A stretch of 40,216 nucleotides of DNA from IMG/VR virus record IMGVR_UViG_3300049459_000161, positions 1-40,216 of that record; one strand, written 5' to 3'. Of this stretch, positions 5,677-32,531 are shown in pieces (position 1 is the stretch's first letter; each line of letters starts with the position of its first letter). Position numbers and translations under genes: made by a program. This DNA comes from a virus. The notes beneath the pieces are model-generated. The model was not told the DNA's origin, searched no databases, and saw nothing but the letters and a program-made list of their open reading frames with translations.

Positions 5677-8600
5677 ATGTCTGATCAAATCGGTACCGCG
5701 TCAATCGGGCTGGCAGTAGATTCGAGCGGCGTCGATGCTGGTTTGAACCAGATGGAGGCGACCGTACAGCGCGCCGGCCGCAGTCTCAGCACCCTGGGCC
5801 GCACCGGCGCCGCCGCCATCGACGATATCGGCGCCGGGGCCGGCGCTGCGGCTGGCCGCGTTGACACGTCCACCCGCTCGATCCAGAACAGCATTCAGCG
5901 CGTGACGGCCGCCGCCGAAGCGGGGGAGCGCAACACGCGATCCTACTTCGAGGCCTTGGCCAACCAGCGCGGCGCCAACGTCAACGCCCTGCGACCCTAC
6001 CTCGACCAGCTTGACCAGGTGCGCGCGCGGCAGGACGCCGCCGCACAGGCCGCGCTGCGCGGCGGGAGCGCTTTTCAGAGCAACGCACAGTCGGCTGCTG
6101 CGCTGGCGGCCTCATTGCGCCAGGTGCCGGCCCAGCTCACCGACATCGTCACGTCGATCCAGGGCGGACAGCAGCCCTTGACCGTCCTCCTGCAGCAGGG
6201 CGGCCAGCTGCGCGACATGTTCGGCTCGGCCGGCGGCGCGGCCCGCGCGCTGGGTGGCTACCTGGTCAGCTTGGTCAGCCCGTTGACGGTTGCTGCGGCT
6301 GCTGTGGTGGTTCTGGGCGTGGCTTACAACCAAGGCAGCAAGGAGGCCGATGCCTATCGCAAGTCCATCATCCTGACCGGCAACGCCGCCGGGGTCACCA
6401 CCAGCCAGCTTTCTAGCATGGCCAAGCAGGCGTCGGAGGTGGCCGGCACGCAAGGCGCCAACGCCGAAGCGCTGGCCCAGCTGGTGGGTACCGGTAAGGT
6501 AGGCGCCGAGAATCTGGTGCGTTTCTCCGCTACGGCCGTCCAGTCCCAAAAGCTGCTTGGAATCGCCGTGGAAGACACCGTCAAGGCCTTTGCCGATCTT
6601 GCTAAAGACCCGCTTCAGGCCTCGCTCAAGCTGAATGAGCAGTTCAACTATTTGACAACGGCGACATACAAGCAGATTAAGGCGTTGACGGATCAAGGTC
6701 GCACCGCTGAAGCTGCAAAGGTGGCGCAGACCGCTCTTGCCGATGCCCAGGATGCGAACAACAAGAAGGTGGCGTCTTCGCTGAGCGCTCTCGAAAAAGC
6801 ATGGGCCAACACTGGCGACGTGGCAAAGAAGGCCTGGGACCTGATGTTGAACGTTGGTCGAGAGGACACGATTGACGAAAAGATCAGGAAGGCACAGGAC
6901 GCGCTCACCAAGGCTAATCTTGCACGCTACTCGTTCACCGGCGGGACGGCAGCCGAAAAAGACGCGGATGTGGCTGATCGTCAGCGTCAGCTTGACCGGC
7001 TGGAGAACATCAAGAAGGTTGGCGCGTTGGAAGCGCAGTATGCTGCTGAAGACACGAAGAGCCGCGATGCCGCCATCCAGTTCGACCAGCAGAGCGAGAA
7101 GTACCTCACCCGCAAGCAGCAGCTGGAGCGGGACATCGCCGCTGCGCGGAACCTTGGGCAGCAGGCCGCACAGCGTGGAGAGGATCCGGCTGTAACCGAG
7201 CAGCGAATCCAGGGCCGCATCAAGGCCATCCGTTCCACGTACGCCGATTACTTCAACCAGTCGATCGAAGGCCAGATCGCGGCCGTGCTGCGCCTTGGCG
7301 CTGTGCAGGAGGAGCAGGCGAAGCGCGCGCTCATCCCGGTCCAGGCGAACAATGATGCGGGTCTGAACAGTTCGCTGGACCAGCGCGCCGCCTACATCCG
7401 AACGATCGCCGATGCGGATGAAAAGTCCTTGGTCGCAGAGAAGGCGCGCCTCCAGCAGCGCCTTGCGCTGACGGCGCAGGAGACGGTCAGCATCGGCGGC
7501 CAAGCTGCCCAGCAACAAAAGCTGGCGGATCTAAAAGGCCAGATTGCGCTGAAGGATCAGCAGATCGCCACCCGCCGGAAGCAGACAGAGGCCGACCTGT
7601 TCGTATTGGATGTCAAGAATTACCGCGACATCGCGGAGTCCTACGCCGCGCTCTACGACACGCGGCTTGCTGACGTTGCGGCTATCGAGCAGCAAATTCA
7701 GGCGCAAAGTGACCAGAATGCTGCGATCGGCCTGACCGCCAAGCAGCTGGAGGTCCTTAATACCCGGCTGACCGAAGAAAAGGCTGTACGCCTCGAAAAC
7801 AAGGCTGAAATCCTCGACACCATTGTCGGCCGCGAAGATGAGGCGGAGTCCCTGCGGAAAGCCGCCCAGCGCATGCGTGAACTCAACCAGGCCCAGATCG
7901 AGGGGGTGCGCAAGGCCGCCGATGTCGAGGCCTACAATAAGTTCTGGGATTCGATCGACAGCGCCGCGCAATCGGCATTCTCCAATATCGACAAGGGTGG
8001 CAAGGCTGTCCGCGATCGGATCACGGACAGCTTGAAGTCGGGCTTCGAGGACGCCCTGTACCAACTGACGATCAAGCAGTTCATCATCAACGTCAAGGCG
8101 CAGGTCACCGCTGATTACCTCAGTAACGCTGCCGGCGCCGCCGCTGCCGTGGCGGGCAATGGCACCGCCGCTACCGCCGGCACCCCGGGCGTCATCGGCA
8201 ACGTCGCCAACGCCCTGAACATCTACAAGCTGACCAGCGGCGCCGGCGCGTCCATTACCGCCGCCGGCAATCTATTTGGATCTTCCGCTGTCTCAGCATT
8301 CGGCGCCGGCCTGTCGGGTGGTACGGCCACTGCGGAGGCGGCTGCGGCATACGCCGCGGCTGGCGAGACCGCAGTCGCGGGAGGGTTGACGGCAGGCGCG
8401 TCGGTGACCGCCGCGTTGGCAGCCATACCCGTTTGGGGCTGGGCCGCGCTTGGCGCAGCCGCTATCGCCAGCTACTTGGGCGTCTTCGATGGCGCCGGCC
8501 CTGAATCGAATACCAGCTTGACTTTCGGCTCGAACAACACAGCCGGCAACATCTCGATCAATCAGCGCGGCAACGAAGGCAAGAGCGATGCGTACATCGC

Positions 8601-16257: not shown

Positions 16258-17355
16258 CTATTTTGTTGCTCTGGCGGACTTTGTCCTCCGTCGGTCGTAC
16301 ACCTGCGCCACCATCCGGCCATCCTTGTGGCCTGTGGCATCGGTAATTTTCGCGTCCCCTTCCTCCATTCTGTCGGTGACGGCGGCTGGCCGCATGTCGG
16401 CCAGTGTGAACCTGGTAAATGCGACACCATCCTTTTTCGCCTGAGTGGCGCAGTGCGCCATCAGGCGCCGCAGATTGGTGTTGAACCCACTTACCGTGTA
16501 CGGCTGCCCGCTCGTGTTGCCAAAAACGTAGATGCTCGTTGTGCGCTGTATCGCCAGCGCCTCAGCCACCGCGCTGCGCAGCTCCGGTGACCAGCGTATG
16601 AGCTTGTGCCGCTGCGCCTGACCGCCCTTGCGCTTGCCGATGGGTAGATGTATGCCGTCGTCCGTGACGCCTTGGCGCACGAGCCAACGCATTTCGTCCG
16701 GCCGACTGACCGTGAGGTAGGCGACCTGTAAGCACAACGCGACGGTCACATATGCGCCGCCACATGCGCGCGCCACCCGCATCAACATAGCCAGCTCGTC
16801 CGGGCCGACATATTTATCCTTGGGCCGCGTTTTGTTGTATTTGATCCCCCTGCACGGATTTTCTTCCAGTTCACCCAGCCGCCGGCCGTACTCCAATACC
16901 GCTGAGAGTAGTGCGATTTCTTTGTTAGCCTTGGCTGGCGCGCCTTTCGCAGCGCGTCCGGCCAAGTATTTATAAATGTGGACAGGTTTGATCTGACTTG
17001 GCTTCACTTTTCCGAATGACATAAGCAGCGGACGCTGCTCGTCCTTATTTACCTTCAGCGTGCTTGCCGCCTTCCGATCCTCGCTGTCGAGCGGCATGCC
17101 TTCTTGCCAGGCAAAATAGAGCTTGAACAGATTTTCCGTCGATCCGACCAACGGCACCTCGCCGTTCAGCAAATTTGCCCGCTGCATGGCGTCAGCCTTG
17201 ATTGCTGCAACGGCATCCTTGTCGGAAGTCGCCGCGCTCAACCGGAACGCCCAGGTGCCATCCGGCAGCTTGTAGCCATAGCTGGTTTTGAATTTCCCTT
17301 GGCGCGCATACAGGCGGAAAGGGAGCCCATCGGGCGATTTGCGCCGGCCGATCAT
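16258..17355 (-). CDS. int: Tyrosine integrase (365 aa)
   Basis: A site-specific recombinase with an N-terminal arm-binding part, a SAM-like core-binding domain (about 75-165) and a catalytic domain. Catalytic residues visible: Arg218 (TVSRPDEMRW), Arg322 (FTLADMRPAAVT), His343 (TGHKDGRM) and Tyr353 (QVYDRR). The first position of the HxxR box is Leu rather than His, a variant common among phage integrases. It is encoded beside the tRNA-His attP, so it is the integrase for the lysogenic cycle. Its start overlaps the stop of the upstream DUF4224 gene (ATGA), so both are co-translated. Confidence 0.92.
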   Translation of the reverse strand: MIGRRKSPDGLPFRLYARQGKFKTSYGYKLPDGTWAFRLSAATSDKDAVAAIKADAMQRANLLNGEVPLVGSTENLFKLYFAWQEGMPLDSEDRKAASTLKVNKDEQRPLLMSFGKVKPSQIKPVHIYKYLAGRAAKGAPAKANKEIALLSAVLEYGRRLGELEENPCRGIKYNKTRPKDKYVGPDELAMLMRVARACGGAYVTVALCLQVAYLTVSRPDEMRWLVRQGVTDDGIHLPIGKRKGGQAQRHKLIRWSPELRSAVAEALAIQRTTSIYVFGNTSGQPYTVSGFNTNLRRLMAHCATQAKKDGVAFTRFTLADMRPAAVTDRMEEGDAKITDATGHKDGRMVAQVYDRRRTKSARATK

Positions 17356-17582
17356 GCGGTAAACATGCTGAAATCGGGTTCAACGCCGTCGGTGGCCTGG
17401 GTCTGCTGGAGTGCGCCCGACATGCGGGCGTCATGATAGGCGCGGCTCACGCAGGGGAAGCCGCGCAAGTTCGGCTCAAACGGCCACGTGTTGCGTTGCA
17501 AATATCGACGCATGCAGGCGAAGCTGGTCGGCGCGCAGCCGATTAGCGTGGCTAATTCTTGCGCACTCAGATAGTTGTTCAT
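17352..17582 (-). CDS. DUF4224-like protein, excisionase candidate (76 aa)
   Basis: A 76-residue protein (MNNYLSAQELATLIGCAPTS) with the winged-helix-like start of DUF4224 proteins: an LSAQEL helix, FACMRRYLQRNTWPF, then a GFPCVSR strand. Genes of this family commonly lie directly upstream of phage integrases and probably direct excision, although that role is inferred. An AGAGGA site precedes the start. It overlaps the integrase start by four bases. Confidence 0.75.
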   Translation of the reverse strand: MNNYLSAQELATLIGCAPTSFACMRRYLQRNTWPFEPNLRGFPCVSRAYHDARMSGALQQTQATDGVEPDFSMFTA

Positions 17583-17658: not shown

Positions 17659-17904
17659 CTAGGTTGCTTCCGGCGCTAGTGTTATTTCGCTGGCAGGAAT
17701 TGGGATGGGGTTGCCGCAGAGGTAGACAGTGGTTTCCACGTCGCCGCCTGAGAGTCCCGCCTGCATCTGCTGGATGAAGCACGGCTTACCGTCGTGCATG
17801 ACCCTCTGTGCCTTGTAGATCGCCCGCAGCAACATCTGATCCCTCGTGAAAGCTGCGGCCGTGGCCTGTTGCGACACGCTCATGCGCATTTCATTCGCTC
17901 CCAT
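17659..17904 (-). CDS. Protein of unknown function after the DGR reverse transcriptase (81 aa)
   Basis: An 81-residue protein whose start overlaps the end of the reverse transcriptase gene by 14 bases, so it is the last member of the DGR operon. It starts MGANEMRMSVSQQATAAAFT; in-frame ATGs at 17889 and 17883 are alternative starts, and 17889 has GGGAG eight bases before it. The middle (LLRAIYKAQRVMHDGKPCF) is helical and the end (TVYLCGNPIPIPASEI) beta-like. I do not recognise it. Conservation beside other phage DGRs would be needed to give it a role. Confidence 0.6.
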   Translation of the reverse strand: MGANEMRMSVSQQATAAAFTRDQMLLRAIYKAQRVMHDGKPCFIQQMQAGLSGGDVETTVYLCGNPIPIPASEITLAPEAT

Positions 17905-19003
17905 GGCTCCTCCTATAGGTTTTGGTCAGTGCCTTGTTGACGCTGTGGCCGCGCTGCAGCACGGCGCGCGCCAGGCGAGCGCGGTCGTAGTGACTGCTGG
18001 TCGACTGGCGCAGCAGACCGAAGTAGCTGTTGGCGGATGTGTAGACGTCGGCGGGATCGATGCCGGCAATGCGGCTGACGGCCTCGTTCACGGTACGGCG
18101 CCGCGTGCGGGTATTCCATGGCCGGATGACGTGGCCGACGAAATCAACGCCGCGCGTGACGGGCTGGAGAATGGTTTTGGTAGGGTTAAGCTTTGCGTGC
18201 AGTCGCTCGGGAAGGAACGTGTCGATGCGCGCTAGCGCGGCGCCGAGCCACTGCGGCGACTCGTGCAGCAGCACGAAGTCATCAACGTAGCGGACATAGT
18301 GCCGCGCGCGCACCTGGTGCTTCGCAAACTGGTCCAGCGCGTCGAGGTAGATGTTCGCGAAGAACTGCGACGACAGGTTGCCAATTGGAAGGCCGAGGTG
18401 GGCCGGCTGGTTGGTCAGTCGCTTATGCGGCGGAACGCGATCGAGCAGCTCGGCCGCGCCGCGCAGCTCGTAGTTCTCGCGCGGGTCATGGTGCAGCACC
18501 GTGCTGGCCAGCTGCATCCACCACGGTTCACTGACCCGGGCTTCGACCTGGGCATGCAGCACCCGTTTGTCGATCGCGACGAAGAAGTTCGCCAGGTCGC
18601 ATTTCAAATACCATAGCGGCTTGGACCAGTTCTCGCTGGCACTCCGGATCTTTGCCTCCAGGCGCTGGGCCGCGTACAGCGTGCCGCGTCCAGGGATACA
18701 TGCGCAGGTGTCGGCGATGAAGCTGCTGTAGAACCGAGGGGAAATCCGGTTGTACAGCAGGTGGTGCACTACACGGTCCCGGAAGTCGGCCGCCCAGACT
18801 TCACGCGCTTTTGGGCGCGTGACGACGAAGCAGATGGATTTTCCGGGGCGATACGAGCCGTCAGTGAGCTCGTCGTGTAGATCGATCAGGTTGCGCTCCA
18901 GGCGCTCCTCGAACAGCAAGGCGCTTCTGGAGTTGCGTTTGTTGCGGCGGCAATCGAAGTACGCGACCACCAACTCCTGCAGATCGAAGTCTGCAGGAAT
19001 CAC
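17891..19003 (-). CDS. DGR reverse transcriptase
   Basis: A group-II-intron-like reverse transcriptase of the DGR clade, about 370 residues from GTG 19003. It makes mutagenised cDNA from the template-repeat RNA. Motifs, numbered from this start: the N-terminal block VAYFDCRRNKRNSRSALLFE, EVWAADFRDRVVHHLLYN, catalytic CDLANFF (Asp136), the DGR-type GLPIGNLSSQFFAN (about 204-217) with SSQ in place of the usual QG, and YVDD at 239-242. The frame is open up to an ATG at 19330 and runs through the template repeat, so the true start is uncertain. GTG 19027 (AAGG eight bases before it) and ATG 19072 are alternatives. I prefer a start after the template repeat, as in other DGRs of the order target-avd-TR-RT. 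Confidence 0.93.
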   Translation of the reverse strand: MIPADFDLQELVVAYFDCRRNKRNSRSALLFEERLERNLIDLHDELTDGSYRPGKSICFVVTRPKAREVWAADFRDRVVHHLLYNRISPRFYSSFIADTCACIPGRGTLYAAQRLEAKIRSASENWSKPLWYLKCDLANFFVAIDKRVLHAQVEARVSEPWWMQLASTVLHHDPRENYELRGAAELLDRVPPHKRLTNQPAHLGLPIGNLSSQFFANIYLDALDQFAKHQVRARHYVRYVDDFVLLHESPQWLGAALARIDTFLPERLHAKLNPTKTILQPVTRGVDFVGHVIRPWNTRTRRRTVNEAVSRIAGIDPADVYTSANSYFGLLRQSTSSHYDRARLARAVLQRGHSVNKALTKTYRRSHGSE

Positions 19004-19293
19004 ATCGTTTTCATCTGCGGACGACACGCACCCGGCCTTCGTTCGACTTGTGGTTGTAGTTCTGGTTGCCATCGTTGAAGTTCTGGTTCCACGCGTTAGA
19101 GGGATTGGAGGCGTGCTGCGTTTATTCGTGCTATCTACGTCGCCCCGCCGAAGGCCTTGACCGATCAGCGGGAAAACTGCGCCAGGCCTGACCGGACTCC
19201 GCCGGGTGGTTCCTGTGGTGCGCATGGCGGTGGCCTTGTGAGCCAGCGGCACGACCAGATTTAAAAATCGCTCAGACATGACGGCCTTGACGG
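19003..19293 (-). ncRNA. DGR template RNA region (between avd and RT)
   Basis: This 290-base stretch between the avd stop and the reverse transcriptase start carries the template repeat and no credible independent gene. In studied DGRs the RNA containing the template repeat plus flanks on both sides, reaching into the RT gene, is the substrate for cDNA synthesis. The true RNA ends are not visible here. Confidence 0.5.
19013..19121 (-). repeat. DGR template repeat (TR)
   Basis: A 109-bp sequence aligned without indels to three copies at 19678, 22156 and 22855. On the - strand it is rich in AAC codons: read in the frame of the targets it gives SNAWNQNFNDG followed by NQNYNHKSNEG and RVRVVRR. 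There are about 32 adenines on that strand. In all three variable copies every substitution falls on one of them, and none falls on C, G or T. It lies between avd and the reverse transcriptase, the classic position. Confidence 0.95.
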
Positions 19294-19650
19294 TCACATA
19301 GCGGGCGACGATGCGGAGTGCTTGCGCCATCCACCGGCCTGCCGGCCGATCTTCGCCGTAATGCCGATCGCCTTGGCGTACTGACCTTTCGAGATAAGCC
19401 CCAGGTCGACGGCGAGCCGGAACAGCAGCTCGGTGACCTGTAGCCGCTCCAACAGCATGTCGAGGTGCGGCACCTTGTCCCGCGCGCAGTTCGCCTTATA
19501 GACGAGCAGCGAGAGGTCCAGGCATTCGGCGTTGATCTTCTGGCCGACCGTCGTCTTGTAGTCGCGGCGCATGTTCTTGATCAGCTCCATGGCCAGCAAC
19601 ATCAGTTCGTAGGTCAGCTTGTAGATCGGCAGTTCGGTGTGGAGGGCCAT
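19294..19650 (-). CDS. avd: Avd, DGR accessory variability determinant
   Basis: A 118-residue, almost wholly helical and basic protein (MALHTELPIYKLTYELMLLA, IKNMRRDYKTTVGQKINAEC, HLDMLLERLQVTELLFRLAVD, GQYAKAIGITAKIGRQAGGW). This is the four-helix bundle of Avd, which forms a basic pentamer, binds the reverse transcriptase and the template RNA, and is needed for retrohoming. It lies between the third target gene and the template repeat, as in the Bordetella phage BPP-1 cassette. I see no clear ribosome site before ATG 19650, which lies 13 bases after the stop of the target gene; coupled translation is possible. Confidence 0.9.
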   Translation of the reverse strand: MALHTELPIYKLTYELMLLAMELIKNMRRDYKTTVGQKINAECLDLSLLVYKANCARDKVPHLDMLLERLQVTELLFRLAVDLGLISKGQYAKAIGITAKIGRQAGGWRKHSASSPAM

Positions 19651-19663
19651 ATAAATTACTGAA

Positions 19664-20071
19664 TTACTGAATGATTAATCTGCGGACGACACGCACCCGG
19701 CCTTCGTGCGACTTGTGGCCGTAGTACTGGTGGCCATCGTGGAAGTACTGGCCCCACGCGGTAGAGGGAACGGAGGCGTGCTGCTCACCGGACCAATGCC
19801 AGTACGGCTCGAACTCCTCCTTCAGGTTCGCGAACAACAACGACTGCTCGCGGCGCGTCGGCAGCTCGCCGCCGGCATCGACCGCGAATTTCTTTGCTTG
19901 ATCCCAGGTCAGCTTTTCACCCTTGCCCGGCAACAGCACCAGGTGGATATCAGGCTCACCGTTCTTGCCGAGCAGCAGGCCGGCATACAGCTCACCTTCG
20001 CGCAAGTGCTGCGCCAAGAACTGCGCCTTCGCCTCGCGCATGCCCTGCACTACGTTCGTTTCTTTGTTCAT
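19664..20071 (-). CDS. DGR target protein 1, short C-type-lectin-like protein (135 aa)
   Basis: A 135-residue protein ending in variable repeat VR1. The N-terminal half (MREAKAQFLAQHLREGELYA, LLLGKNGEPDIHLVLLPG) leads into LTWDQAKKFAVDAGGELPTR and FEPYWHWSGEQHAS, the DUF1566/CLec-like scaffold that displays the variable residues. The C-terminus is HKSHEGRVRVVRR plus LIIQ. Compared with the other two targets it is shorter and lacks the GGGYFSG-type N-terminal domain. It has no signal peptide or membrane helix, so it is cytoplasmic or virion-bound. AAGAAG precedes the ATG. It sits directly upstream of avd. Confidence 0.85.
   Translation of the reverse strand: MNKETNVVQGMREAKAQFLAQHLREGELYAGLLLGKNGEPDIHLVLLPGKGEKLTWDQAKKFAVDAGGELPTRREQSLLFANLKEEFEPYWHWSGEQHASVPSTAWGQYFHDGHQYYGHKSHEGRVRVVRRLIIQ
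19678..19784 (-). repeat. DGR variable repeat 1 (VR1)
   Basis: About 107 bp aligned without gaps to the template repeat. Twelve substitutions, all at template adenines (coding strand). Homology ends two bases earlier than in VR2 and VR3, since the last two bases differ in a non-adenine way. The variable codons change Asn positions of the template to Val, Thr, Gly, Tyr and His among others. Confidence 0.93.
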
Positions 20072-20097
20072 AATCTTCTTTCGTTTTGGAAGATGGG

Positions 20098-20118
20098 CCG
20101 CCGCCCGTAGCGCGGCGG
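20098..20118. other. GC-rich hairpin upstream of target 1
   Basis: A 7-bp perfect stem CCGCCGC/GCGGCGG with a seven-base loop, without a T tract on either strand. It lies 27 bases upstream of the target 1 start and downstream of the small membrane gene. It may act as an attenuator or processing hairpin inside the leftward operon. Confidence 0.4.
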
Positions 20119-20147
20119 TGTTGGGTGCGGCAACTGCGAAATCGGTA

Positions 20148-20258
20148 CTACCACCAGTTCCAGATCACCAAGGCGATGAACAGGCCGTAGGTCAGGGCGA
20201 TCTCGATCCAGATGGTGCGGCGGTAGTTATGATCTTTCTCGGCCGGCGGCTTAGTCAC
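20148..20258 (-). CDS. Small single-pass membrane protein (36 aa)
   Basis: A 36-residue protein from GTG 20258: a charged start ([13 protein letters not shown]) followed by one hydrophobic helix ([19 protein letters not shown]) to the end. Its start overlaps the last codons of the HD-hydrolase gene by eight bases, suggesting coupled translation. No function is recognised; small tail-anchored proteins of this kind are frequent in early phage operons. Confidence 0.55.
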
Positions 20259-20850
20259 AATCGCCTCCCTCGGTATCAGGGAGATTGGCGTGCTGCAGGG
20301 CCACCAGTTCGTAGTAGCGCCGCAGGAACGCAGCCTTGGCCTCGCGCGGCGCCAGTGGTGCAATCGGATCAGGCAAGGGGTGGATGCCGACAAGACACGC
20401 CCACTGCCCAGCGCCGGCCGGCATCAGGTCGCGCTGCTCGGTGGCCAGCAGCACCATGTCTGCCGTCTTGATCTCGGCCGGCATGACCGGGCTGACGCCG
20501 AAGCGGGTGAGCACTGCGTACTCCACAGCCTTCTCGATCACCTTGTAGTCGGGCAGCATGGCCTTCAGCGGGCGGGAGACGTCGCCGATGAATGCTTCCG
20601 CCGCATCGTGCAGCAGGCCCGCCAGCGCGTGCTCAGGCGCCACAACATGGCTGACCAGCACCGAGTGCTGCGCAACCGAGTAAAACTCGCGCACGTGACC
20701 CGTAAAGCGGCACACGTGGGCCAGCGCGTGGGCGACGTCCTCGATGTCGAAAACGGAGTCCGCTGGCGTCACGAAGTTGAAGTAGTTGCCTGATTGGGTG
20801 AAGATGTCAGGGCGCATTGGCGCGCCGACGAAGTTGGCGTGGCCGCTCAT
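20251..20850 (-). CDS. HD-domain phosphohydrolase (YfbR-like 5'-nucleotidase family)
   Basis: A 199-residue protein with the HD metal-binding signature: His62 (QHSVLVSH), His81-Asp82 (LLHDAAEAF) and Asp131 ([11 protein letters not shown]). The context [17 protein letters not shown] is typical of YfbR-like enzymes, which remove phosphate from deoxynucleoside monophosphates. In a phage it could adjust dNTP pools or clear a signalling nucleotide; that choice is inference. The longer open frame upstream lies within rdgC. The ATG at 20850 overlaps the rdgC stop (ATGA). It is a member of the leftward operon that ends with the DGR reverse transcriptase. Confidence 0.85.
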
Positions 20851-21746
20851 GCCTTTGCCTCCCCGCCCAGCGCCTCGACCACCCCGGCCAGCAACTTGGC
20901 CAGCTCGCCGGTCATCAGCACGAAGTCGCCATCGAAGCGCTCGTCGTCGTTCTTGGTGCTCGATTCCTTTTCCGCGATCACATCCAGCGGCTTGATGCCC
21001 TTGATCGCCAGCGATTCGGTCAGCACGAAGGAGATCTTGCTGTCCCAGGTCATGGCCAGGCGGGTGCACTGCTTGCCGCCGGCGATGTGGCGGCGTACTT
21101 CGTCCGCTTCCAGCGTGTGGCGCACATAGCGCACGGCGGCCTTGCTCTCGCCGCTGGCGCGTAGTTCGGTGTCCATGTCGACCGTGAAGCCGGCCGGCGC
21201 GTCGTCCGCCTGCAGCCACTCGGTCATCACGCCCACCGGCGAGCGCTGCACGCGCAGGCTTTCCAGTGGCAGCTTGTCGACCGCCTTGAGCAGAAGTTTA
21301 ATCACTTCGTCAGCCTTGGCCGGGCTGGCCGCGTCGACCACCAGCCAGCCGTTGACCGGATCGATCCACACGTCGGTGGTGGCTGCGATGCTGAGCGCGC
21401 GCGGCAGCAGTTCATCAGCGATCCGCTCCTTCAGCTCCTTCATTGCCTTCTTGCCGGGCATGAAACCCTGCGCATCCTTCATTTCCTCGGCGCGCTTCGT
21501 GGCCAGCTGGTTGACCGCCTTGGCCGGGATCAGCTTCTTCTCGGTTTTCAGGCGGAGCAGCATCTGGCGGTTGACGCTATGCACCAAGTCTCCACCCTCG
21601 CGCGGCGGGACCCATCCTTGACGCATCAAGTCGTTGCTCTCGGCCGGCACGTACCAGTGCGGCGCCAGCGACTCGACCAGGTCGGCGACGGACATCGGCC
21701 AGTTTTTCGGCAGGCAGTAAATCTGTAAATTCTTGAACCAGGACAT
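20847..21746 (-). CDS. rdgC: Recombination-associated protein RdgC
   Basis: A 299-residue protein matching RdgC in length and pattern: [75 protein letters not shown]. RdgC forms a DNA-encircling ring and restrains RecA-mediated recombination. Phage copies may protect phage DNA or shape recombination during replication. In this genome it stands between the DGR target genes and the DGR core, so it may act on cDNA homing or keep the near-identical repeats from recombining with each other; both ideas are inference. The region GAGAGATCGCC before the ATG is a modest ribosome site. Confidence 0.88.
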
Positions 21747-21761
21747 GGCGATCTCTCTTCG

Positions 21762-21953
21762 TTATTTTTGCTTGAGGATTTGCTGCATGCGCTCTTCCGC
21801 TGCAACCTGGGCACGCAGGGCCTGAAGTAGCTCCGCGCCAACGCTGGTGTATTCCGCGCGCAGCTGGCTGCTGCGCTGGACGCTATTCCGATATGCCCGG
21901 CGAGCGTTCTGGCGCCGCGCCGCGCGGTAGAGCAGGTACACCCAACCAATCAT
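21762..21953 (-). CDS. Small membrane-anchored coiled-coil protein (63 aa)
   Basis: A 63-residue protein with a short hydrophobic start (MIGWVYLLYRAARRQ), then a basic and helical stretch rich in Arg, Gln and Glu (SSQLRAEYTSVGAELLQALR). It overlaps the upstream small gene by ATGA and ends 15 bases before rdgC. It may be weakly membrane-attached. I do not recognise it. Confidence 0.55.
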   Translation of the reverse strand: MIGWVYLLYRAARRQNARRAYRNSVQRSSQLRAEYTSVGAELLQALRAQVAAEERMQQILKQK

Positions 21954-22081
21954 GGTTGCACCATCGCGGTCACGCCCAGCGCGCCCGCGTCATACGCTGC
22001 ATCGATCAGCAGGCCAAGGTCGCCGATTGCTGCGTAGGTGCGCATGCCGTCGGCGGTGCGCTCGGTGATGAGAAATTTCAT
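21950..22081 (-). CDS. Small protein of unknown function (43 aa)
   Basis: A 43-residue protein (MKFLITERTADGMRTYAAIG) with a good GGAG site six bases before its ATG. Its TGA overlaps the next ATG. It lies between target gene 2 and the small membrane protein. No motif is seen. The clean ribosome site and coupled overlap are the support for its being real. Confidence 0.6.
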   Translation of the reverse strand: MKFLITERTADGMRTYAAIGDLGLLIDAAYDAGALGVTAMVQP

Positions 22082-22105
22082 GAACGTCTCCATCAGGTTG
22101 GCGGA

Positions 22106-22123
22106 CGCGCCGCTGCCGGCGCG
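22106..22123 (-). other. GC hairpin downstream of VR2
   Basis: A 7-bp perfect stem CGCGCCG/CGGCGCG with a four-base loop. It lies 32 bases beyond the end of VR2 on the coding strand and past the stop codon. A similar hairpin lies 31 bases beyond VR3. In the Bordetella phage DGR a hairpin just downstream of the variable repeat is needed for efficient homing. There is no T tract, which speaks against a terminator. Confidence 0.55.
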
Positions 22124-22144
22124 CAGTATCGAATTGATGAATGA

Positions 22145-22777
22145 CTAAATGGGCAATCTGCGGACGACACGCACCCGGCCTTCGTTCGACTTGCGGTTGT
22201 AGTACTGGCCGCCATCGCCGAAGCCCTGGTACCACGCGTAAGAGGGATTGGAGGCGTGCTGCGTGCTGGACCAGTACCACCAGTCTTCCACCGCATCAGC
22301 GCCGCCTTCGCGGAAGCTATCGATCGCGGTCTGCGTCGGCACCTCGTCGGCGTAGGCTTCGCCCATCGGCACGCTACTCGGATTGATGCCGTCCTCCCCA
22401 TCAGCGTAGTTTTCTTGACCGGTCGGCTTGAAGGCGCGGTATTGCAGCTCCTGTTCGTCGCGGCTTGGGATGTACCAGTCGCTGTAGCCGTTGATCGTCA
22501 GCGCCATGGCCGCCTGGGCCAGCTCGCTGCCGGCGCTGGCCAGCGCCTCGGTATTGGCCTGACCGTCGCCGCGGTGCTTTGCGCCGTCGACCATCGTCGG
22601 CTGCGACTGCAGCTTGCCGCGCAGCTCGCCGGCGGCGCCGGCCGTGATCAACGCGAATCCCTTGCCTCCGATCTGGGTGATGCCGGTGAAGAAGCCGCCG
22701 CCGAACGGCGTGCCGATGACGGTCGGGATGGCCTCGGCGACGAGGGCAGGGGATGCGGCGGCGACAGCAGTGCTCAT
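22145..22777 (-). CDS. DGR target protein 2, DUF1566/C-type-lectin-like (210 aa)
   Basis: A 210-residue protein ending in VR2. An N-terminal beta domain (IGTPFGGGFFTGITQIGGKG, FALITAGAAGELRGK) is followed by the DUF1566/FGE-like lectin fold: INGYSDWYIPSRDEQELQYR, then VEDWWYWSSTQHAS and the variable end RKSNEGRVRVVRRLPI. It is a paralogue of target 3, with nearly the same domain order. I chose the second ATG (22777) because GGAG stands six bases before it; the first ATG (22789) has no site. No signal peptide or transmembrane helix is seen. The ligand of the variable surface is unknown. Confidence 0.88.
   Translation of the reverse strand: MSTAVAAASPALVAEAIPTVIGTPFGGGFFTGITQIGGKGFALITAGAAGELRGKLQSQPTMVDGAKHRGDGQANTEALASAGSELAQAAMALTINGYSDWYIPSRDEQELQYRAFKPTGQENYADGEDGINPSSVPMGEAYADEVPTQTAIDSFREGGADAVEDWWYWSSTQHASNPSYAWYQGFGDGGQYYNRKSNEGRVRVVRRLPI
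22156..22264 (-). repeat. DGR variable repeat 2 (VR2)
   Basis: 109 bp aligned without gaps to the template. Ten substitutions, all at template adenines. It is the copy closest to the template, which may mean the most recent or least selected event. Immediately downstream it shares about 14 further bases with VR3 that are absent from the template, which may define the homing-initiation side. Confidence 0.95.
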
Positions 22778-22806
22778 GGTGTACTCCATAGGTTTGGCGA
22801 GGGAAG

Positions 22807-22823
22807 CCGGCGCGGCGCGCCGG
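22807..22823 (-). other. GC hairpin downstream of VR3
   Basis: A 7-bp perfect stem CCGGCGC/GCGCCGG with a three-base loop, 31 bases beyond the end of VR3 on the coding strand and after the stop codon. Its spacing matches the hairpin after VR2. No T tract follows. Confidence 0.55.
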
Positions 22824-22843
22824 GAAGGAAAATTACTGAAGGA

Positions 22844-23656
22844 CTAAATGGGCAATCTGCGGACGACACGCACCCGGCCTTCGTTCGACTTGCGGCTGCA
22901 GGCCTGGCTGCCAGCGTTGAAGCCCTGGAGCCACGCGGTAGAGGGATCGGAGGCGCGCTGCGTGCTGGACCAGTACCAGGCGTCAGCCAGCGCATCTACG
23001 CCGCCGGAACGGAAGTTCGCGGCGATGGTCTGGACCGGGAAATCCTTGGTGTACAGCGCGCCCACGGGGCTGCTGCTCGGGTTATCGCCGTCGCCGCTTG
23101 TGACGGCATTGCGCTGGTTGGTGGGCTTGAGGTTGCGATACATCAGCTCCAGTTCGTCACGCGATGGGATATACCAATCCTTGTGACCACCGATGGCGAG
23201 GTCCATCGCCTGCGCCGCCAGCACGCTGCCGGCCGCGACCATCGTCAGCGTGTTGCCGGCGCCGTCGCAGCGCGATACCGGGGCTGCAGGGCCGCTGTAG
23301 TCGCGGTTCCACACGCCGGTCAGCTCGCCCTCGGCGCCGGCCGTAATCAACGCGTAGCGCTTGCCCTCAACGGTGATGACGCCGGAGAAGTAGCCGCCGC
23401 CGAGTGGCGCGCCGAACAGCATGCCGTCGACCTGGTGTTCAATGCCGATGCCCAACTGGGCAATCAGGTCAGGGGATGCGGTGATGATGCGCTGGTCGGC
23501 GTCGAGCACGATCAAGTGCTGGCCAGCGCGGTCGGTGTACTTGGTGAAGCCTTCCCACGCCGAGGCGACGGCTAGGCCGGTTATGGTGCGGTTACCCAGC
23601 TTGGCGCTGTAGGTGCGTTCTTCGGTGAAGCGGAGTATTGCGGCTTGGTGGGACAT
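22844..23656 (-). CDS. DGR target protein 3, DUF1566/C-type-lectin-like with N-terminal extension (270 aa)
   Basis: A 270-residue protein, first gene behind the operator-controlled leftward promoter. Residues 1-75 (MSHQAAILRFTEERTYSAK, GLAVASAWEGFTKYTDRAGQ, LIVLDADQRIITAS) are an extension not found in target 2. The rest parallels target 2: FGAPLGGGYFSGVITVEGKR, HKDWYIPSRDELELMYRNLK, DAWYWSSTQRAS, then the variable end RKSNEGRVRVVRRLPI. ATG 23656 is preferred over 23668 because GGAG lies six bases before it, the same arrangement as in target 2. No export signal is seen, so the protein acts in the cell or on the virion. Confidence 0.88.
   Translation of the reverse strand: MSHQAAILRFTEERTYSAKLGNRTITGLAVASAWEGFTKYTDRAGQHLIVLDADQRIITASPDLIAQLGIGIEHQVDGMLFGAPLGGGYFSGVITVEGKRYALITAGAEGELTGVWNRDYSGPAAPVSRCDGAGNTLTMVAAGSVLAAQAMDLAIGGHKDWYIPSRDELELMYRNLKPTNQRNAVTSGDGDNPSSSPVGALYTKDFPVQTIAANFRSGGVDALADAWYWSSTQRASDPSTAWLQGFNAGSQACSRKSNEGRVRVVRRLPI
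22855..22963 (-). repeat. DGR variable repeat 3 (VR3)
   Basis: 109 bp aligned without gaps to the template. Fourteen substitutions, all at template adenines; the most diverged copy. Template Asn codons become Asp, Thr, Leu, Gly, Ser and Ala among others, and a Tyr codon becomes Cys. Confidence 0.95.
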
Positions 23657-23690
23657 CTTGTTCTCCATCGGGTGGTGAGTCGATGAGAGA

Positions 23691-23718
23691 ACTATACGCG
23701 AATGGATAATTATTGCAA
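23691..23718 (-). promoter_or_regulatory. Leftward promoter of the DGR target operon
   Basis: On the - strand TTGCAA (23713-23718) and TATAGT (23691-23696) are separated by 16 bases. The predicted start lies about 30 bases before the target 3 ATG, leaving room for its GGAG site. The -10 is inside one copy of the 19-bp operator and the -35 abuts a second, so bound repressor would block RNA polymerase. Confidence 0.65.
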
Positions 23719-23764
23719 TACGCGAATGAATAATTTGTTGTATTTTTTATCCATAGTCGTATAG
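23691..23764. promoter_or_regulatory. Three repressor-type operators in front of the DGR operon
   Basis: Copy B1 (23691-23709) is ACTATACGCGAATGGATAA, an exact reverse complement of the operator next to the Cro-like gene (25930-25948). B2 (23718-23733) is ATACGCGAATGAATAA. B3 (23747-23764) is TTATCCATAGTCGTATAG, differing from the switch copy at three of 18 positions. Three sites at one promoter resemble a lambda-type operator set. Confidence 0.75.
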
Positions 23765-23815: not shown

Positions 23816-24397
23816 TCAATCCTGCGCCGCTTGGACCTGGACGGCTTCTATAAAAGCATTGATCTTTCCTTCAACGCCGGCGGCGCTGCGATCAAATGCG
23901 AAGACTTGCTTTCCTCGCGATTGACTCGCAAAGAACCATTGGCCGGATCCACGTGTCGGCTCAACCATGTAAATCACATCGGATCCCGTCGCCGGCGCGA
24001 TCGAGCCGGCCATGGTATCCATGTTGACCAGTTGAACCTCGCGATAGATATTTCGCTTTGTGATCGCTTCGTAGAAGACCTTCACTCCCCGGTAATTTGC
24101 CGAATTTATGTTTTCCAGCATTTCCTTGCCTAGGCCGGATGGAGGACTTCCGTTTTGAGCTTGGTACCAGCCACTACTTGCCGCATTCAGTGCCGCCAAA
24201 GTAGGCACTCCGAATAGTAGCTTTTTGTTGCTAAGCGGCTCAGAGAGGGGAGTAACGTGGCCCACGGCATCAGAGTAGGTTTTCGCGACTGCAGCTTGGA
24301 ACGCCTCCTGAGAATTGTACTTCGTACCTTCAAAGGTGTAATTCGCAGCGCACCCAGTCACAAACACTGCAACGAGAAGAAGAAACAATTTATTCAT
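23816..24397 (-). CDS. Putative lipoprotein, moron candidate (193 aa)
   Basis: A 193-residue protein with a lipoprotein signal MNKLFLLLVAVFVTGCAAN (lipobox VTGC, Cys16), followed by a soluble domain (YTFEGTKYNSQEAFQAAVAK, KVFYEAITKRNIYREVQLVN, AFDRSAAGVEGKINAFIEAV). It overlaps the upstream lipoprotein gene by eight bases. Base composition is clearly lower in GC than the flanking phage genes, and position and direction (behind the repressor gene) suggest expression from the prophage. A host-surface function in the lysogen is likely. I do not recognise the family; its reading as an envelope-associated factor rests on the signal only. Confidence 0.75.
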   Translation of the reverse strand: MNKLFLLLVAVFVTGCAANYTFEGTKYNSQEAFQAAVAKTYSDAVGHVTPLSEPLSNKKLLFGVPTLAALNAASSGWYQAQNGSPPSGLGKEMLENINSANYRGVKVFYEAITKRNIYREVQLVNMDTMAGSIAPATGSDVIYMVEPTRGSGQWFFASQSRGKQVFAFDRSAAGVEGKINAFIEAVQVQAAQD

Positions 24398-25076
24398 TTG
24401 ATGAGCCTCCGATTGATATGCATTTTTTAAGGCTGGTTTTAAATTTTGGAAGATTCGTTACTGAACATTCAACCATCTGATCGGTGGGCTTCGATTGCAG
24501 CAATTCTTTTGGGGCGTCTGTGAGCTCGGCGGTGAATCCCGTTACGTATCGTTGTCGAAAAATGTCCAAGGAGTCTTGGCACACGGACTGCGGGATCTTT
24601 TGAATCGCGGGAACTGAGACGCATACGCCTACAGGATGGCGGAAAGTATCGGATTGCACTACGTCGTAGTAGCTAATTTCCCCGTCTAAGCGTTTCACCG
24701 CGTAGCGGAAATGGAATTTTGACTGACCTGGTTGATCGAGAGCGGAGCCTAGTGCCGCACCTAGCAGAGTCATGCCGAGCTGATTTTTCGCGGAATAATT
24801 CCCTGACTTGAGGGCGTGATCGATGTAACCGGCATTTGCCCCTGCGGCGCCCAGCGCAGACCCCGCATTCGTTCCGGGCGTCGACTCGTCGGTTCCCTGA
24901 TTATCGATAATGACGCCGAACGACGTCATCGGTACTGGGGCCACGACGAACCGGGATTGCACAATATCGCGCTCTCGTTGGGAGAGATTTCGCCACACGG
25001 CCTCGTTAATTTGGAGCTGCTCCTGCGCAGTGCAGTTACTACAGAGGGTTGCCAGCAGAATTATTCTTCGGAGCAT
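24390..25076 (-). CDS. Exported or lipoprotein-like protein, moron candidate (228 aa)
   Basis: A 228-residue protein with a signal sequence MLRRIILLATLCSNCTAQ; a lipobox-like SNC places Cys15 after the hydrophobic core, though it is atypical. The middle has a glycine/alanine-rich stretch (GTNAGSALGAAGANAGYI, LGMTLLGAALGSAL) reminiscent of glycine-zipper lipoproteins. The end has several cysteines (CVSVPAIQKIPQSVC, MVECS, KKCIS) suited to disulfides outside the cytoplasm. It has its own promoter candidate and is co-transcribed with the next lipoprotein. Together they look like a transferred moron. Function unknown. Confidence 0.7.
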   Translation of the reverse strand: MLRRIILLATLCSNCTAQEQLQINEAVWRNLSQRERDIVQSRFVVAPVPMTSFGVIIDNQGTDESTPGTNAGSALGAAGANAGYIDHALKSGNYSAKNQLGMTLLGAALGSALDQPGQSKFHFRYAVKRLDGEISYYDVVQSDTFRHPVGVCVSVPAIQKIPQSVCQDSLDIFRQRYVTGFTAELTDAPKELLQSKPTDQMVECSVTNLPKFKTSLKKCISIGGSSNE

Positions 25077-25093
25077 GTGGGCTCACTACCGTA

Positions 25094-25143
25094 TTCACCA
25101 ATGAATAGTGATTATATGCAAATATATCGCGCCAACTCTCACG
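25094..25143 (-). promoter_or_regulatory. Candidate moron promoter
   Basis: On the - strand a consensus -10 TATAAT (25111-25116) sits in an AT-rich stretch (GATATATTTGCA before it) between the repressor stop and the first lipoprotein gene. A convincing -35 is not seen at the usual distance; TTGGCG stands 13 bases away. An independent promoter is typical of prophage morons. Confidence 0.45.
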
Positions 25144-25166: not shown

Positions 25167-25865
25167 TTAGATCCGTTCAGTTTCTCGCTTCACTATGCGG
25201 CCGATGATCATGCACTCGCCATCACGACAGCTCTTACGCTTGTGCCGAACCTGATCTGCGTTATCAGAAGTCAGCCACCATTCACCACGATCTCGTGCGA
25301 GCCTCTTCACCACAGCCTGGCCCTCGAAATTGAACGCGAACACTGCACCGTCTTCCATCTTGGTATCTGCCGTATTTATGATGACTTGATCACCTTCGTA
25401 AAGATTGGGTTCCATGCTGTCACCCTTGATCCTGATCGCGATAAGCCGCTCAGGTATGTAGCCGTGCCTATCGACCCAATTTCGGGAAATGCTGAGTTTG
25501 CTGCCGTCGTAGATTTCTGGGACTGTTTGGAAGCTTGTCATACCCGCCGAAAGAACTAACTGAACCTTGGGAATTTCGTAGAAGTCCGGATCGTTTGGTT
25601 CTGGGACAACGACGTTAGTAAATTCATGTGGCGAGATGCCTGCTGTCCGACGCTTTGGCTCCCTTCCTTCATGAAGCCATTCGAAGGTCACATTGCAGGC
25701 GTTTGCGAGCTGAATGATGGTTTGCGTTTCTGGGCCGCGCTTTCCACCACCCTTTAGTATGCGGTTTATCGTCGGCTGCGGCACACTTGATGCGCGCGCG
25801 AGTGCACTCTGCGAGTCGAAACCAGCTTCGCTCATTGCCTCATCTAGTCGGGTGGCGATTGTCAT
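25167..25865 (-). CDS. CI-like repressor with S24 (LexA-type) autoprotease domain
   Basis: A 232-residue repressor. The N-terminal helix-turn-helix spans about 5-55 (SQSALARASSVPQPTINRIL). The C-terminal S24 domain shows the Ala107-Gly108 cleavage site (LSAGMTS), Ser150 (KGDSMEPN) and Lys187 (VVKRLAR), so it should be inactivated by RecA-stimulated self-cleavage on DNA damage. I start it at ATG 25865: the upstream in-frame codons (from 25952) run through the operators. A -10 TATAGT ends six bases before this ATG and no ribosome site exists, so the message is probably leaderless. It is divergent from the Cro-like gene. Confidence 0.92.
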   Translation of the reverse strand: MTIATRLDEAMSEAGFDSQSALARASSVPQPTINRILKGGGKRGPETQTIIQLANACNVTFEWLHEGREPKRRTAGISPHEFTNVVVPEPNDPDFYEIPKVQLVLSAGMTSFQTVPEIYDGSKLSISRNWVDRHGYIPERLIAIRIKGDSMEPNLYEGDQVIINTADTKMEDGAVFAFNFEGQAVVKRLARDRGEWWLTSDNADQVRHKRKSCRDGECMIIGRIVKRETERI

Positions 25866-25871
25866 GCGCAA

Positions 25872-25901
25872 ACTATACGTGCGCGTATAGTCAATTCGCA
25901 A
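25872..25901 (-). promoter_or_regulatory. Promoter of the repressor gene (leaderless)
   Basis: On the - strand TTGCGA (25896-25901) and TATAGT (25872-25877), 18 bases apart. Six bases separate the -10 from the repressor ATG, so transcription should begin at or next to the start codon. Confidence 0.6.
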
Positions 25902-25920
25902 ATAGCTATTCATTCGAGTA

Positions 25921-25948
25921 TTGACTTGCTTATCCATTCGCGTATAGT
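25921..25948 (+). promoter_or_regulatory. Early rightward promoter (leaderless Cro-like mRNA)
   Basis: TTGACT (25921-25926) and TATAGT (25943-25948), 16 bases apart, with six bases to ATG 25955. No ribosome site fits, so the first gene is predicted to be read from a leaderless transcript. The -10 lies inside operator A3. Confidence 0.7.
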
Positions 25949-25954
25949 TCAATC

Positions 25955-26206
25955 ATGGATACCAAAATTACGAATCTCCTCCAGGAGATTAAGAAAGCTA
26001 CCGGTTGGAGCGAGCCGAAGATTGCCGCTGAACTGGGTACTTCGCAGCCGACGGTGAATCGCATTCTCAACGGCCAAGACGAGTGCAAGGTAAGCACGTT
26101 CCGTGCAATCACCGAATTGCACGCTTCCGTCGTGAAATCGAAGGCTGCATACCGCGCTTCCGATGCAGCTGGGACTAATGGCGGTGACCCAGTCGGCCCT
26201 CCATGA
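25955..26206 (+). CDS. Cro-like repressor (83 aa)
   Basis: An 83-residue DNA-binding protein: helix-turn-helix at about 12-45 (TGWSEPKIAAELGTSQPTVN) and a short flexible tail. It is the first gene of the rightward early operon and divergent from the CI-like gene, the Cro position. It should bind the same operators and shut down the repressor promoter after induction. The start codon lies directly behind the -10 element, so translation is probably leaderless. Confidence 0.85.
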   Translation: MDTKITNLLQEIKKATGWSEPKIAAELGTSQPTVNRILNGQDECKVSTFRAITELHASVVKSKAAYRASDAAGTNGGDPVGPP

Positions 26207-30815: not shown

Positions 30816-31467
30816 GAGCTGGGTCGAGAAACTGTTCGAAAAAATGTTGTTCGACTACGGCAAGAAGTTCACGGACCAGTGGGGCGCCGCCGACTCCGAT
30901 GGCCTGATCGCGTACTGGTCCGCCTCGCTGGCGGGATTCACTGGCGCGGAGCTTGATCGCGGCGTCAAGGCCATGGAGGCGCTGGACTGGCCGCCAACGC
31001 TGCCGCAGTTCAAAAAACTGTGCCGTCCGCCGATGGACCCGATGGTGGCCTTCTTCGAAGCCCAGGCCGGCATGCTGGCGCGTGCCGCCGGTCGCATGGG
31101 CGAGTGGTCGCACCGCGCCGTGTTCTGGGCCGCGATGCAGCTGGGGACGGCGGTGACCGAACAGCAATACGCCACAATCCGCCCGCGCTGGGAAAAGGCC
31201 CTGGGGGACGCGCTGGCCCTCGGTAGCTGGGGTGATATTCCCCAGCCCGCGATCGCCTTGCCAGCACCCGGCAGAACGCGCCTAGCGATGTCTGTCGCCA
31301 AGGAACGCCTTAGCGATCTACAGGCGTCTGGCATTTTGAAGACCGCACCCGATCCGACGCGCCGCCTGGAGTGGGCGCATCGGATCGTCGAGCGCGAGGC
31401 GGCCGGTGACAGGCAGGTCGAACTGCATACGCTGAAGGTGGCCATGGCCGCCCTGGAGCGCGGGTGA
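30754..31467 (+). CDS. P-like replication protein, helicase-loader candidate (237 aa)
   Basis: A 237-residue protein (LPESWVEKLFEKMLFDYGKK, FTDQWGAADSDGLIAYWSAS, LAGFTGAELDRGVKAMEALD, WPPTLPQFKKLCRPP) resembling the lambda P / phage replication P family, which brings the host DnaB helicase to the initiator. It overlaps the end of the O-like gene by 62 bases; GGAG precedes ATG 30754. An inner ATG at 30845 would remove the overlap but also the conserved start. It overlaps the next gene by GTGA. Confidence 0.75.
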   Translation: MQNLTATSSTSTLDQQRPLPESWVEKLFEKMLFDYGKKFTDQWGAADSDGLIAYWSASLAGFTGAELDRGVKAMEALDWPPTLPQFKKLCRPPMDPMVAFFEAQAGMLARAAGRMGEWSHRAVFWAAMQLGTAVTEQQYATIRPRWEKALGDALALGSWGDIPQPAIALPAPGRTRLAMSVAKERLSDLQASGILKTAPDPTRRLEWAHRIVEREAAGDRQVELHTLKVAMAALERG

Positions 31468-32531
31468 GCGCTGAGGTCTTCAAGGTCGGCGCCGTCTGGC
31501 ACTACCGGTTCCAGGTGAAGCCATTCGCCCGCGTACAGCGCAGCACCCGCCTGCGCGATCGCAGCGCCGCCGGCCAGGTGGCGGCGAAGGCCTACGCAGC
31601 GGCGGTCGCCCGCGCCAATGGCGGCGACCCGGTGCCGACGCTGCAGCAGCTGCTGGCCGACTGGCTGGTGGTGCGCGGCCAGCACTCCAGCGCGCACCAC
31701 ATCCGCAGCGTCGAGACGTTCGGCCGCCTGCACACCTACGGCATGGACGAGCTGCTGATCAGCCAGCTCAACACCGACACCGTCGAGCGCGCCCGCAGCA
31801 AGCACCTGACCACTCACAGCCACGCCTCCGCCAACCACTGGCTGCGCGTGCTCAAGCTGCTGGTGCGCTGGGCGGTGCGGCGCGAGATCCTGCCGCGCCT
31901 GCCCTGGTCGGTCACGATGCTGCCGGTGCAAAAGCGGGTGCGCGCCATCCTGCCGTTGTCCGCCGCCATGGCGTGGTTCGCTGCCGTAGATCGGGCCTCG
32001 ACCCGCGCGCCCAACATTGGCGTCGCTGTGCGCCTGATGCTGTGGCTGGGCCTGCGCGAGTCGGAGGCGATCACGGCGCGCTGGGAATGGATCGACTGGG
32101 AGCGCCGCACCTACACCCCCGGCAAGACCAAGGGCAAGGAAGCCGATGGGCTCCGGATGATGCCGTGGCTGATCGATTACCTCACGCCTCTGCGCCAGCC
32201 GGAGGGGCTGATCGTTTGCCGTCCAGACGGGAGTCCCTACGGCGCCGGCCTGGCACGCGCTGCGATCCGGCTGGCCAATGCGACGTGCGCGACCAAGGGG
32301 ATCACGCCGCACCGCCTGCGCGGCACCATCGCCACCGTGATGAGCGAGAACGGCGCGCCGATCCAAAGCATCCAGGCCTACCTGCGCCACAAGGACGTGC
32401 GTACGACTATGGCCTACCTCGAAAAAAACACCGACCTGATCGACACCGCACAAGCAAAAATAGCCGAAAAAGCGGGTTTAACATGGCGAGAAAGTGGCGA
32501 AGACCTTGAAAGCGCGCCTTATGTAGCCTGA
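31464..32531 (+). CDS. Second tyrosine recombinase, in the replication operon (355 aa)
   Basis: A full-length tyrosine recombinase with a core-binding domain (about 58-145) and a complete catalytic set: Arg198 (LGLRESEA), Lys near 222-224 (GKTKGKEA), His283 and Arg286 (TPHRLRGT), His309 (LRHKDVRT) and Tyr318 (MAYLEKN). It is only distantly similar to the integrase at 16 kb and is translated with the P-like gene (GTGA). No att-like tRNA fragment lies nearby. Resolving replication multimers, acting on another site, or being a captured integrase are all possible. Confidence 0.88.
   Translation: MSAEVFKVGAVWHYRFQVKPFARVQRSTRLRDRSAAGQVAAKAYAAAVARANGGDPVPTLQQLLADWLVVRGQHSSAHHIRSVETFGRLHTYGMDELLISQLNTDTVERARSKHLTTHSHASANHWLRVLKLLVRWAVRREILPRLPWSVTMLPVQKRVRAILPLSAAMAWFAAVDRASTRAPNIGVAVRLMLWLGLRESEAITARWEWIDWERRTYTPGKTKGKEADGLRMMPWLIDYLTPLRQPEGLIVCRPDGSPYGAGLARAAIRLANATCATKGITPHRLRGTIATVMSENGAPIQSIQAYLRHKDVRTTMAYLEKNTDLIDTAQAKIAEKAGLTWRESGEDLESAPYVA

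Follow-up and report, generated by a model that had tools for sequence, protein, structure and literature searches.

The window analysed here is the whole 40,216-nucleotide stretch of IMG/VR virus record IMGVR_UViG_3300049459_000161 (positions 1 to 40,216). It comes from a lambda-like temperate phage and carries a diversity-generating retroelement (DGR). With a template repeat (TR), variable repeats (VRs), a reverse transcriptase (RT), Avd and an RT-15 RNA, the element is confirmed as a canonical DGR. Its components lie on the minus strand, together with three target genes that each contain one VR:

17891-19003, minus: DGR reverse transcriptase, putative GTG start at 19003 (PHROG 1423, E 2.9e-120; RVT_1 above cut-off)
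19013-19121, minus: TR, 10 nt upstream of the RT start
19119-19310, minus: RT-15 structured RNA, RF03018 (184.8 bits, gathering threshold 82, full length 1-192 of 192)
19294-19650, minus: avd (PHROG 3206 'Avd protein of DGR', 2.8e-32; Pfam bAvd 45.1 bits, cut-off 40)
19664-20071, minus: target 1, 135 aa, a single C-type-lectin-like domain (Lcl_C, E 1e-6)
19678-19784, minus: VR1, 107 nt, 12 substitutions relative to the TR, 12/12 at template A
22105-22124, minus: GC-rich hairpin, 31 nt downstream of VR2
22145-22789, minus: target 2, 214 aa, Lcl_C domain (Pfam Lcl_C 45.3 bits, above cut-off)
22156-22264, minus: VR2, 109 nt, 10 substitutions relative to the TR, 10/10 at template A
22806-22824, minus: GC-rich hairpin, 30 nt downstream of VR3
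22844-23668, minus: target 3, 274 aa, Lcl_C domain, first gene of the operon (Pfam Lcl_C 48 bits, above cut-off)
22855-22963, minus: VR3, 109 nt, 14 substitutions relative to the TR, 14/14 at template A

The minus-strand alignments of the TR with VR1, VR2 and VR3 are gap-free, and template adenines are the site of all 36 substitutions (21 A>G, 8 A>C and 7 A>T; the VR1 count omits two unmatched bases past its 5' edge), although adenine cells make up only 95 of the 325 aligned (hypergeometric p = 2e-22). Every mutated base is the first or second of its codon, and the codons concerned are AAC-rich. The VRs lie inside the 3' ends of the target genes, and all three reading frames remain open despite the substitutions. 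At their 3' ends the TR and VRs match fully over approximately 30 nt, and a 32-nt piece from this conserved end occurs in four exact copies in the window and in none of 100 shuffles. A chance origin of the repeats can be rejected on the absence of this piece from the shuffles and on the adenine-only p value. A preliminary description of this DNA had given the same repeat coordinates, which are correct on realignment, and its count of 12, 10 and 14 substitutions, all at adenines and without indels, is borne out by an alignment tabulated per template base. An identical TR was sought elsewhere in IMG/VR for a within-species comparison, and none was found.

The RT contains the motifs GLPIGNLSSQ and YVDD, with SQ in motif 4. 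Its nearest solved chain is 8ub7 ('Reverse transcriptase', E 4e-39), which we take to be the RT complex of the DGR of Bordetella phage BPP-1; group II intron RTs are matched only at 3.5e-9. Retron, group II intron and antiviral RT identities are rejected, since those families score far lower than the DGR RTs. The DGR-type RT and Avd of the earlier reading are thus upheld by profile searches (PHROG 1423, PHROG 3206 and Pfam bAvd) and by the match to 8ub7. A scan with the RT detected 338 relatives among IMG/VR records and 120 among GTDB genomes, and the analyses of relatives below draw on the best 80 of each set. Most are prophages of Oxalobacteraceae, other Burkholderiales (Betaproteobacteria) and Pseudomonas. 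The RT-15 RNA lies between avd and the RT gene, and its 3' end is the start of the TR. Because this junction is also present in all seven relatives tested, RT-15 in this lineage seems to serve as 5' leader to the template RNA.

Two further features of this region concern where the RT gene begins. Directly after the TR, at 18971-19002 on the minus strand, a strong hairpin (about -18 kcal/mol) covers the RT gene start. The RT frame also continues without a stop across the TR and RT-15 as far as 19330 (19013-19330 in the window), and an annotation pipeline may therefore call a 479-aa RT that contains the TR.

The genes that surround the element define the operon in which it resides:

16258-17355, minus: tyrosine integrase (Pfam PF00589)
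17352-17582, minus: excisionase (PHROG 4764, 4.8e-13)
20251-20850, minus: HD-type deoxynucleoside 5'-monophosphate phosphatase, in the target operon (PHROG 318, 1.9e-71)
20847-21746, minus: RdgC recombination-associated protein, in the target operon (Pfam RdgC, 1e-105)
25167-25865, minus: CI-like repressor with helix-turn-helix (HTH) and peptidase S24 domains (profile matches)
25955-26206, plus: cro-like HTH regulator (PHROG 6831, 3e-9)

The order is int, xis, an open reading frame (ORF), RT, RT-15/TR, avd, target 1, the HD phosphatase, RdgC, a small ORF, target 2, target 3 and the target promoter. Beyond this promoter are two genes and cI, followed by rightward cro, a cII-like gene, a methyltransferase and replication genes. 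This is the gene order of the lambda left operon map: xis, int, cII, replication and late structural genes all sit where a lambda-like map expects them. The targets occupy 19.7-23.7 kb on the minus strand and the late genes occupy 35.2-40 kb and 2-15 kb on the plus strand; placement of the targets in the tail module, as in BPP-1, is not found in the window. A comparable arrangement is seen in the relatives, in which cI and the RT are on one strand in 27 of 28 loci and a same-strand integrase lies less than 12 kb downstream of the RT in 26 of 35 records. Early DNA-metabolism genes are the neighbours in relatives as well, including RecT, an AAA ATPase and a nuclease in Burkholderia phage Magia, Erf, YqaJ and SSB in phage Medea1, and Bet and a nuclease in Pseudomonas phage Haboob. 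The rightward early region of the window also contains a second tyrosine integrase-like gene (31464-32531, plus), and several relatives likewise have two.

Predicted control elements occur on both sides of cI:

23691-23718, minus: target operon promoter, TTGCAA-N16-TATAGT, its downstream half the same as that of P(cro)
23693-23708, minus: left (OL) operator, 21.3 bits by position weight matrix (PWM)
23717-23732, minus: OL operator, 19.6 bits by PWM
23748-23763, minus: weak OL operator, 10.5 bits by PWM
25874-25946: three 16-bp right (OR) operators in the cI-cro interval, at 25874, 25907 and 25931

The PWM was built from the three OR sites between cI and cro only, and yet its two best sites outside OR in the entire 40 kb are those at 23693 and 23717, before target 3. 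Their scores compare with a maximum of 15.5 bits across 30 simulated sequences. OL and OR thus share predicted CI operators by sequence match, and P(cro) and the target promoter share 21 identical nucleotides, TTATCCATTCGCGTATAGTTC. A search with a single-site 10-base operator in which one mismatch was allowed showed no excess of sites (6 against 3.5 expected); the informative test is that with the 16-base motif only. From these matches we infer that the target operon is probably repressed by CI and expressed early, as one transcript. The preliminary description had placed TR, Avd, RT and all three VRs in one leftward operon of a temperate phage, and had considered that operon early and non-structural. 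The gene order agrees on both counts, and the operator evidence considerably strengthens the second.

Between OL and cI are two minus-strand genes (23816-25076) with lipoprotein-like or hydrophobic starts, in the position of lambda rexAB, for which no family match was found. An operator-like site at 25092-25107 (16.1 bits) precedes the first of them.

The relatives provide an independent test of the operator prediction, because their operator sequences differ. The 200 nt before cI were searched against the stretch between cI and RT, with 12 shuffles per locus. In 16 of 25 loci the operator adjoining cI is found again in this stretch with a score above all 12 shuffles, although two of these loci (L024 and L156) exceed the shuffles by one point only. 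The recurring operators comprise at least five unrelated sequences; the 16 loci do not amount to 16 independent events, since they are partly related. In eight loci the recurrent operator lies 39-89 nt before the first target, and in the remaining loci it is found farther upstream in the same direction. Among loci without a detected CI the result of the operator search is mixed, with five of nine (including L086 and L007) above shuffles.

Repeats in the relatives were identified with an adenine-tolerant scan of 150 non-redundant loci, several of which are cut by contig ends. No VR was found in 10 loci, one in 11, two in 87, three in 37, four in 4 and five in 1. Two or three targets are thus the normal state in this lineage, because 129 of the 150 loci have two to five VRs. 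In published surveys, multi-target systems made up about a seventh of DGRs in one case (PMC3521204) and 28.6% in another (PMC6642488), and DGRs with several targets have been described in other systems (PMC3521204, PMC6642488, PMC10743442). The earlier claim that one template feeds three targets is therefore confirmed, but the multiplicity is not the unusual feature it was taken to be. Across the 150 loci, 4015 of 9780 adenine cells (41%) are substituted, compared with 91 of 22,645 other cells (0.4%), the latter ratio being biased downward because the scan scores adenine mismatches more leniently; the adenine-only result in the window is independent of this bias. A VR on the strand opposite to that of the RT, unlike the rest of the lineage, is present on the minus strand in L035 and L037 (3041-3145) and in L036 (1455-1559), and in L035 it lies 6.8 kb from the RT.

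Closely related pairs differ specifically in their VRs. Between loci L071 and L072 there is 0% difference in the RT and in the 300 nt that precede the VR, whereas 14 of the 107 positions of the VR itself differ, each of them an adenine. L008 and L013 are identical in the TR, have flanks that differ by 2-6%, and have three VRs that differ at 13, 16 and 15 positions, 44/44 at adenines. The backbones of the Pseudomonas phage Cruim01 and of Medea1 are 1.2% apart, whereas one VR differs by 15.4% and the remainder of that target gene by 3.2%. These comparisons show recent retrohoming in the relatives. For the window, past retrohoming into the three genes, as proposed earlier, is a sound deduction from the adenine-only footprint; recent activity is shown in relatives only.

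Medea1 is also relevant to the view that the element is decayed or selfish, its footprints old and the DGR no longer of consequence to the phage. In this phage (L166, 8599-9240) an HNH-type gene stands in place of avd, the TR and most of the RT, with a 147-nt 3' remnant of the RT behind it, and both targets are intact, which shows that targets were kept after loss of the DGR. Against decay, all ORFs in the window are open and the footprint is adenine-only, and in the relatives 41% of adenine cells are mutated and near-identical loci have different VRs. Decay is very improbable.

The targets themselves are small C-type-lectin-fold proteins without secretion signals, and the Lcl_C (DUF1566) domain is common to all three. 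In target 1 it scores 29.4 bits, under the Pfam gathering threshold of 34.9, but the AlphaFold2 (AF2) model (predicted local distance difference test score 95.5) has the same fold. The best Foldseek match of this model is the C-terminal domain of Legionella Lcl, an adhesin (8q4e, 2e-4), with C-type lectins next. In the AF2 model of target 3 the C-terminal 195 residues are confident and the N-terminal 75 aa are of low confidence; a Foldseek search of this model against the PDB gave nothing strong other than 8q4e. Among 302 related-locus targets of at least 90 aa, a borderline N-terminal hydrophobic segment is present in 8 and a chance lipobox in 1, so that almost none has such an N-terminus; no sign of export by a signal peptide or as a lipoprotein was found.

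This bears on lysogenic conversion, in which the targets would be made in the lysogen and shown on the cell or secreted. The target genes are near int, a common site of conversion genes, and among DGR targets encoded by cells, surface proteins are frequent (PMC8144416). However, the targets lack signal peptides and lipoboxes, and the CI-type operators in their promoter would predict repression in the lysogen. The predicted CI-repressed early promoter argues against conversion, which is accordingly improbable, and also makes a late structural role less natural.

The reading that we prefer, with a probability of about 60%, places a canonical DGR in a left early operon that CI represses, in a temperate phage of lambda-like type, and takes the targets to be intracellular binders. 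On infection or induction, CI would leave OL, and one leftward transcript would encode target 3, target 2, RdgC, the HD phosphatase, target 1, Avd, the RT-15/TR RNA and the RT. Avd and RT would copy the TR, inserting random bases opposite its adenines, and the resulting cDNA would take the place of the VR in all three targets. Each replication cycle could then yield progeny with new variants of three C-type-lectin-fold proteins. Less certain is the final step, in which the targets would act inside the host as hypervariable binders, in host take-over, counter-defence or exclusion of rivals, and not as virion adhesins. Action inside the cell is suggested because the targets are predicted to be early, lack export signals and lie outside a tail module context; it has roughly twice the odds of a role in the virion.

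Several observations weigh against this reading. The operator match fails to beat shuffles in 9 of the 25 loci, and VR1 has no strong hairpin within the 70 nt searched. An early promoter is by itself compatible with incorporation into the virion, and it may be that the targets are virion adhesins like BPP-1 Mtd that are encoded far from the tail genes, with diversification altering adsorption. In the lytic phage PMBT3 an Lcl_C homologue adjoins tail-fibre-like genes, and the C-type lectin fold, with the Legionella Lcl domain as nearest solved structure, would suit such a role. Most DGR targets known from phages are tail proteins (PMC8144416), the authors of the Magia announcement suggest a change of host range (PMC7883833), and in more distant DGR phages (Bacteroides uniformis) DUF1566 targets have been tied to tropism (PMC8143477). 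On the other hand, in the window and in relatives the targets are placed under OL with RdgC and the HD phosphatase, outside the late genes. They are single-domain proteins of 120-280 aa in which no tail-attachment domain is recognised, and each phage has two to five distinct ones. Virion adhesins are thus rather unlikely. A wider extension of intracellular binding is offered tentatively, at somewhat short of even odds: a widespread lineage may use DGRs on early non-virion proteins, each burst carrying a fresh trio of intracellular lectin-fold binders against variable proteins of the host or of rival phages.

The usual explanation of phage DGRs is that they act on tail proteins to switch tropism. 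If in the present lineage the most diversified genes answer to the repressor switch that also governs the early takeover genes, this explanation does not fit, and the role of a hypervariable protein after DNA entry becomes directly testable. The lineage is present in cultured Rugamonas, Duganella, Janthinobacterium, Massilia, Paraburkholderia and Pseudomonas and in isolated phages, so that experiments are possible, and Medea1, a natural DGR-minus phage and close kin of Cruim01, offers a ready comparison.

Much of this has precedent, including DGRs of this kind, multi-target DGRs, the potential DGR of Magia and non-structural targets. No published account of DGR targets under the CI operators of a phage early operon was found in the open-access literature searched, although novelty is unproven. 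Mixed clade 3 of Roux et al. 2021, which is viral and cellular with many Proteobacteria, includes non-structural targets, but the text does not describe early-operon control of targets (PMC8144416). The DGRs of Stenotrophomonas SKA14 and Treponema denticola similarly have several paralogous targets, those of SKA14 being DUF1566 proteins, but were reported as bacterial genome elements (PMC6642488). In phage D3 the left-side gene next to cI, orf68, encodes an Lcl_C/PHROG 4245 protein, but the 12.4 kb examined there carry no annotated RT or Avd; a DGR-less target homologue is also found in the terminal-repeat region of the jumbo phage PA5oct.

The BPP-1 system (mtd-avd-TR-brt) resembles the element in the window in its order of target, avd, TR and RT, its adenine-specific substitution, its C-terminal VR, its C-type lectin fold and its hairpins, which are found here after two of the three VRs. 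The RT is about 31% identical to that of BPP-1 over 83% of its length. However, BPP-1 has one target, a tail protein, whereas the window has three single-domain targets in an early operon and an RT-15 RNA leader. Among the closest systems are those of Magia and the Pseudomonas phages Cruim01, Haboob, LPPA56 and SC_8_H2H8_2017, with RTs 62-72% identical to that of the window. The Magia announcement reported a potential DGR with short targets, genes 47 and 57 (PMC7883833); the repeat scan finds three VRs in this phage (L083), one of them in gene 46 (7245-7335) and absent from the announcement. These phages and about 150 prophage loci share with the window short lectin-fold targets in an operon on the int side, and vary in operator sequences, neighbouring genes and number of targets.

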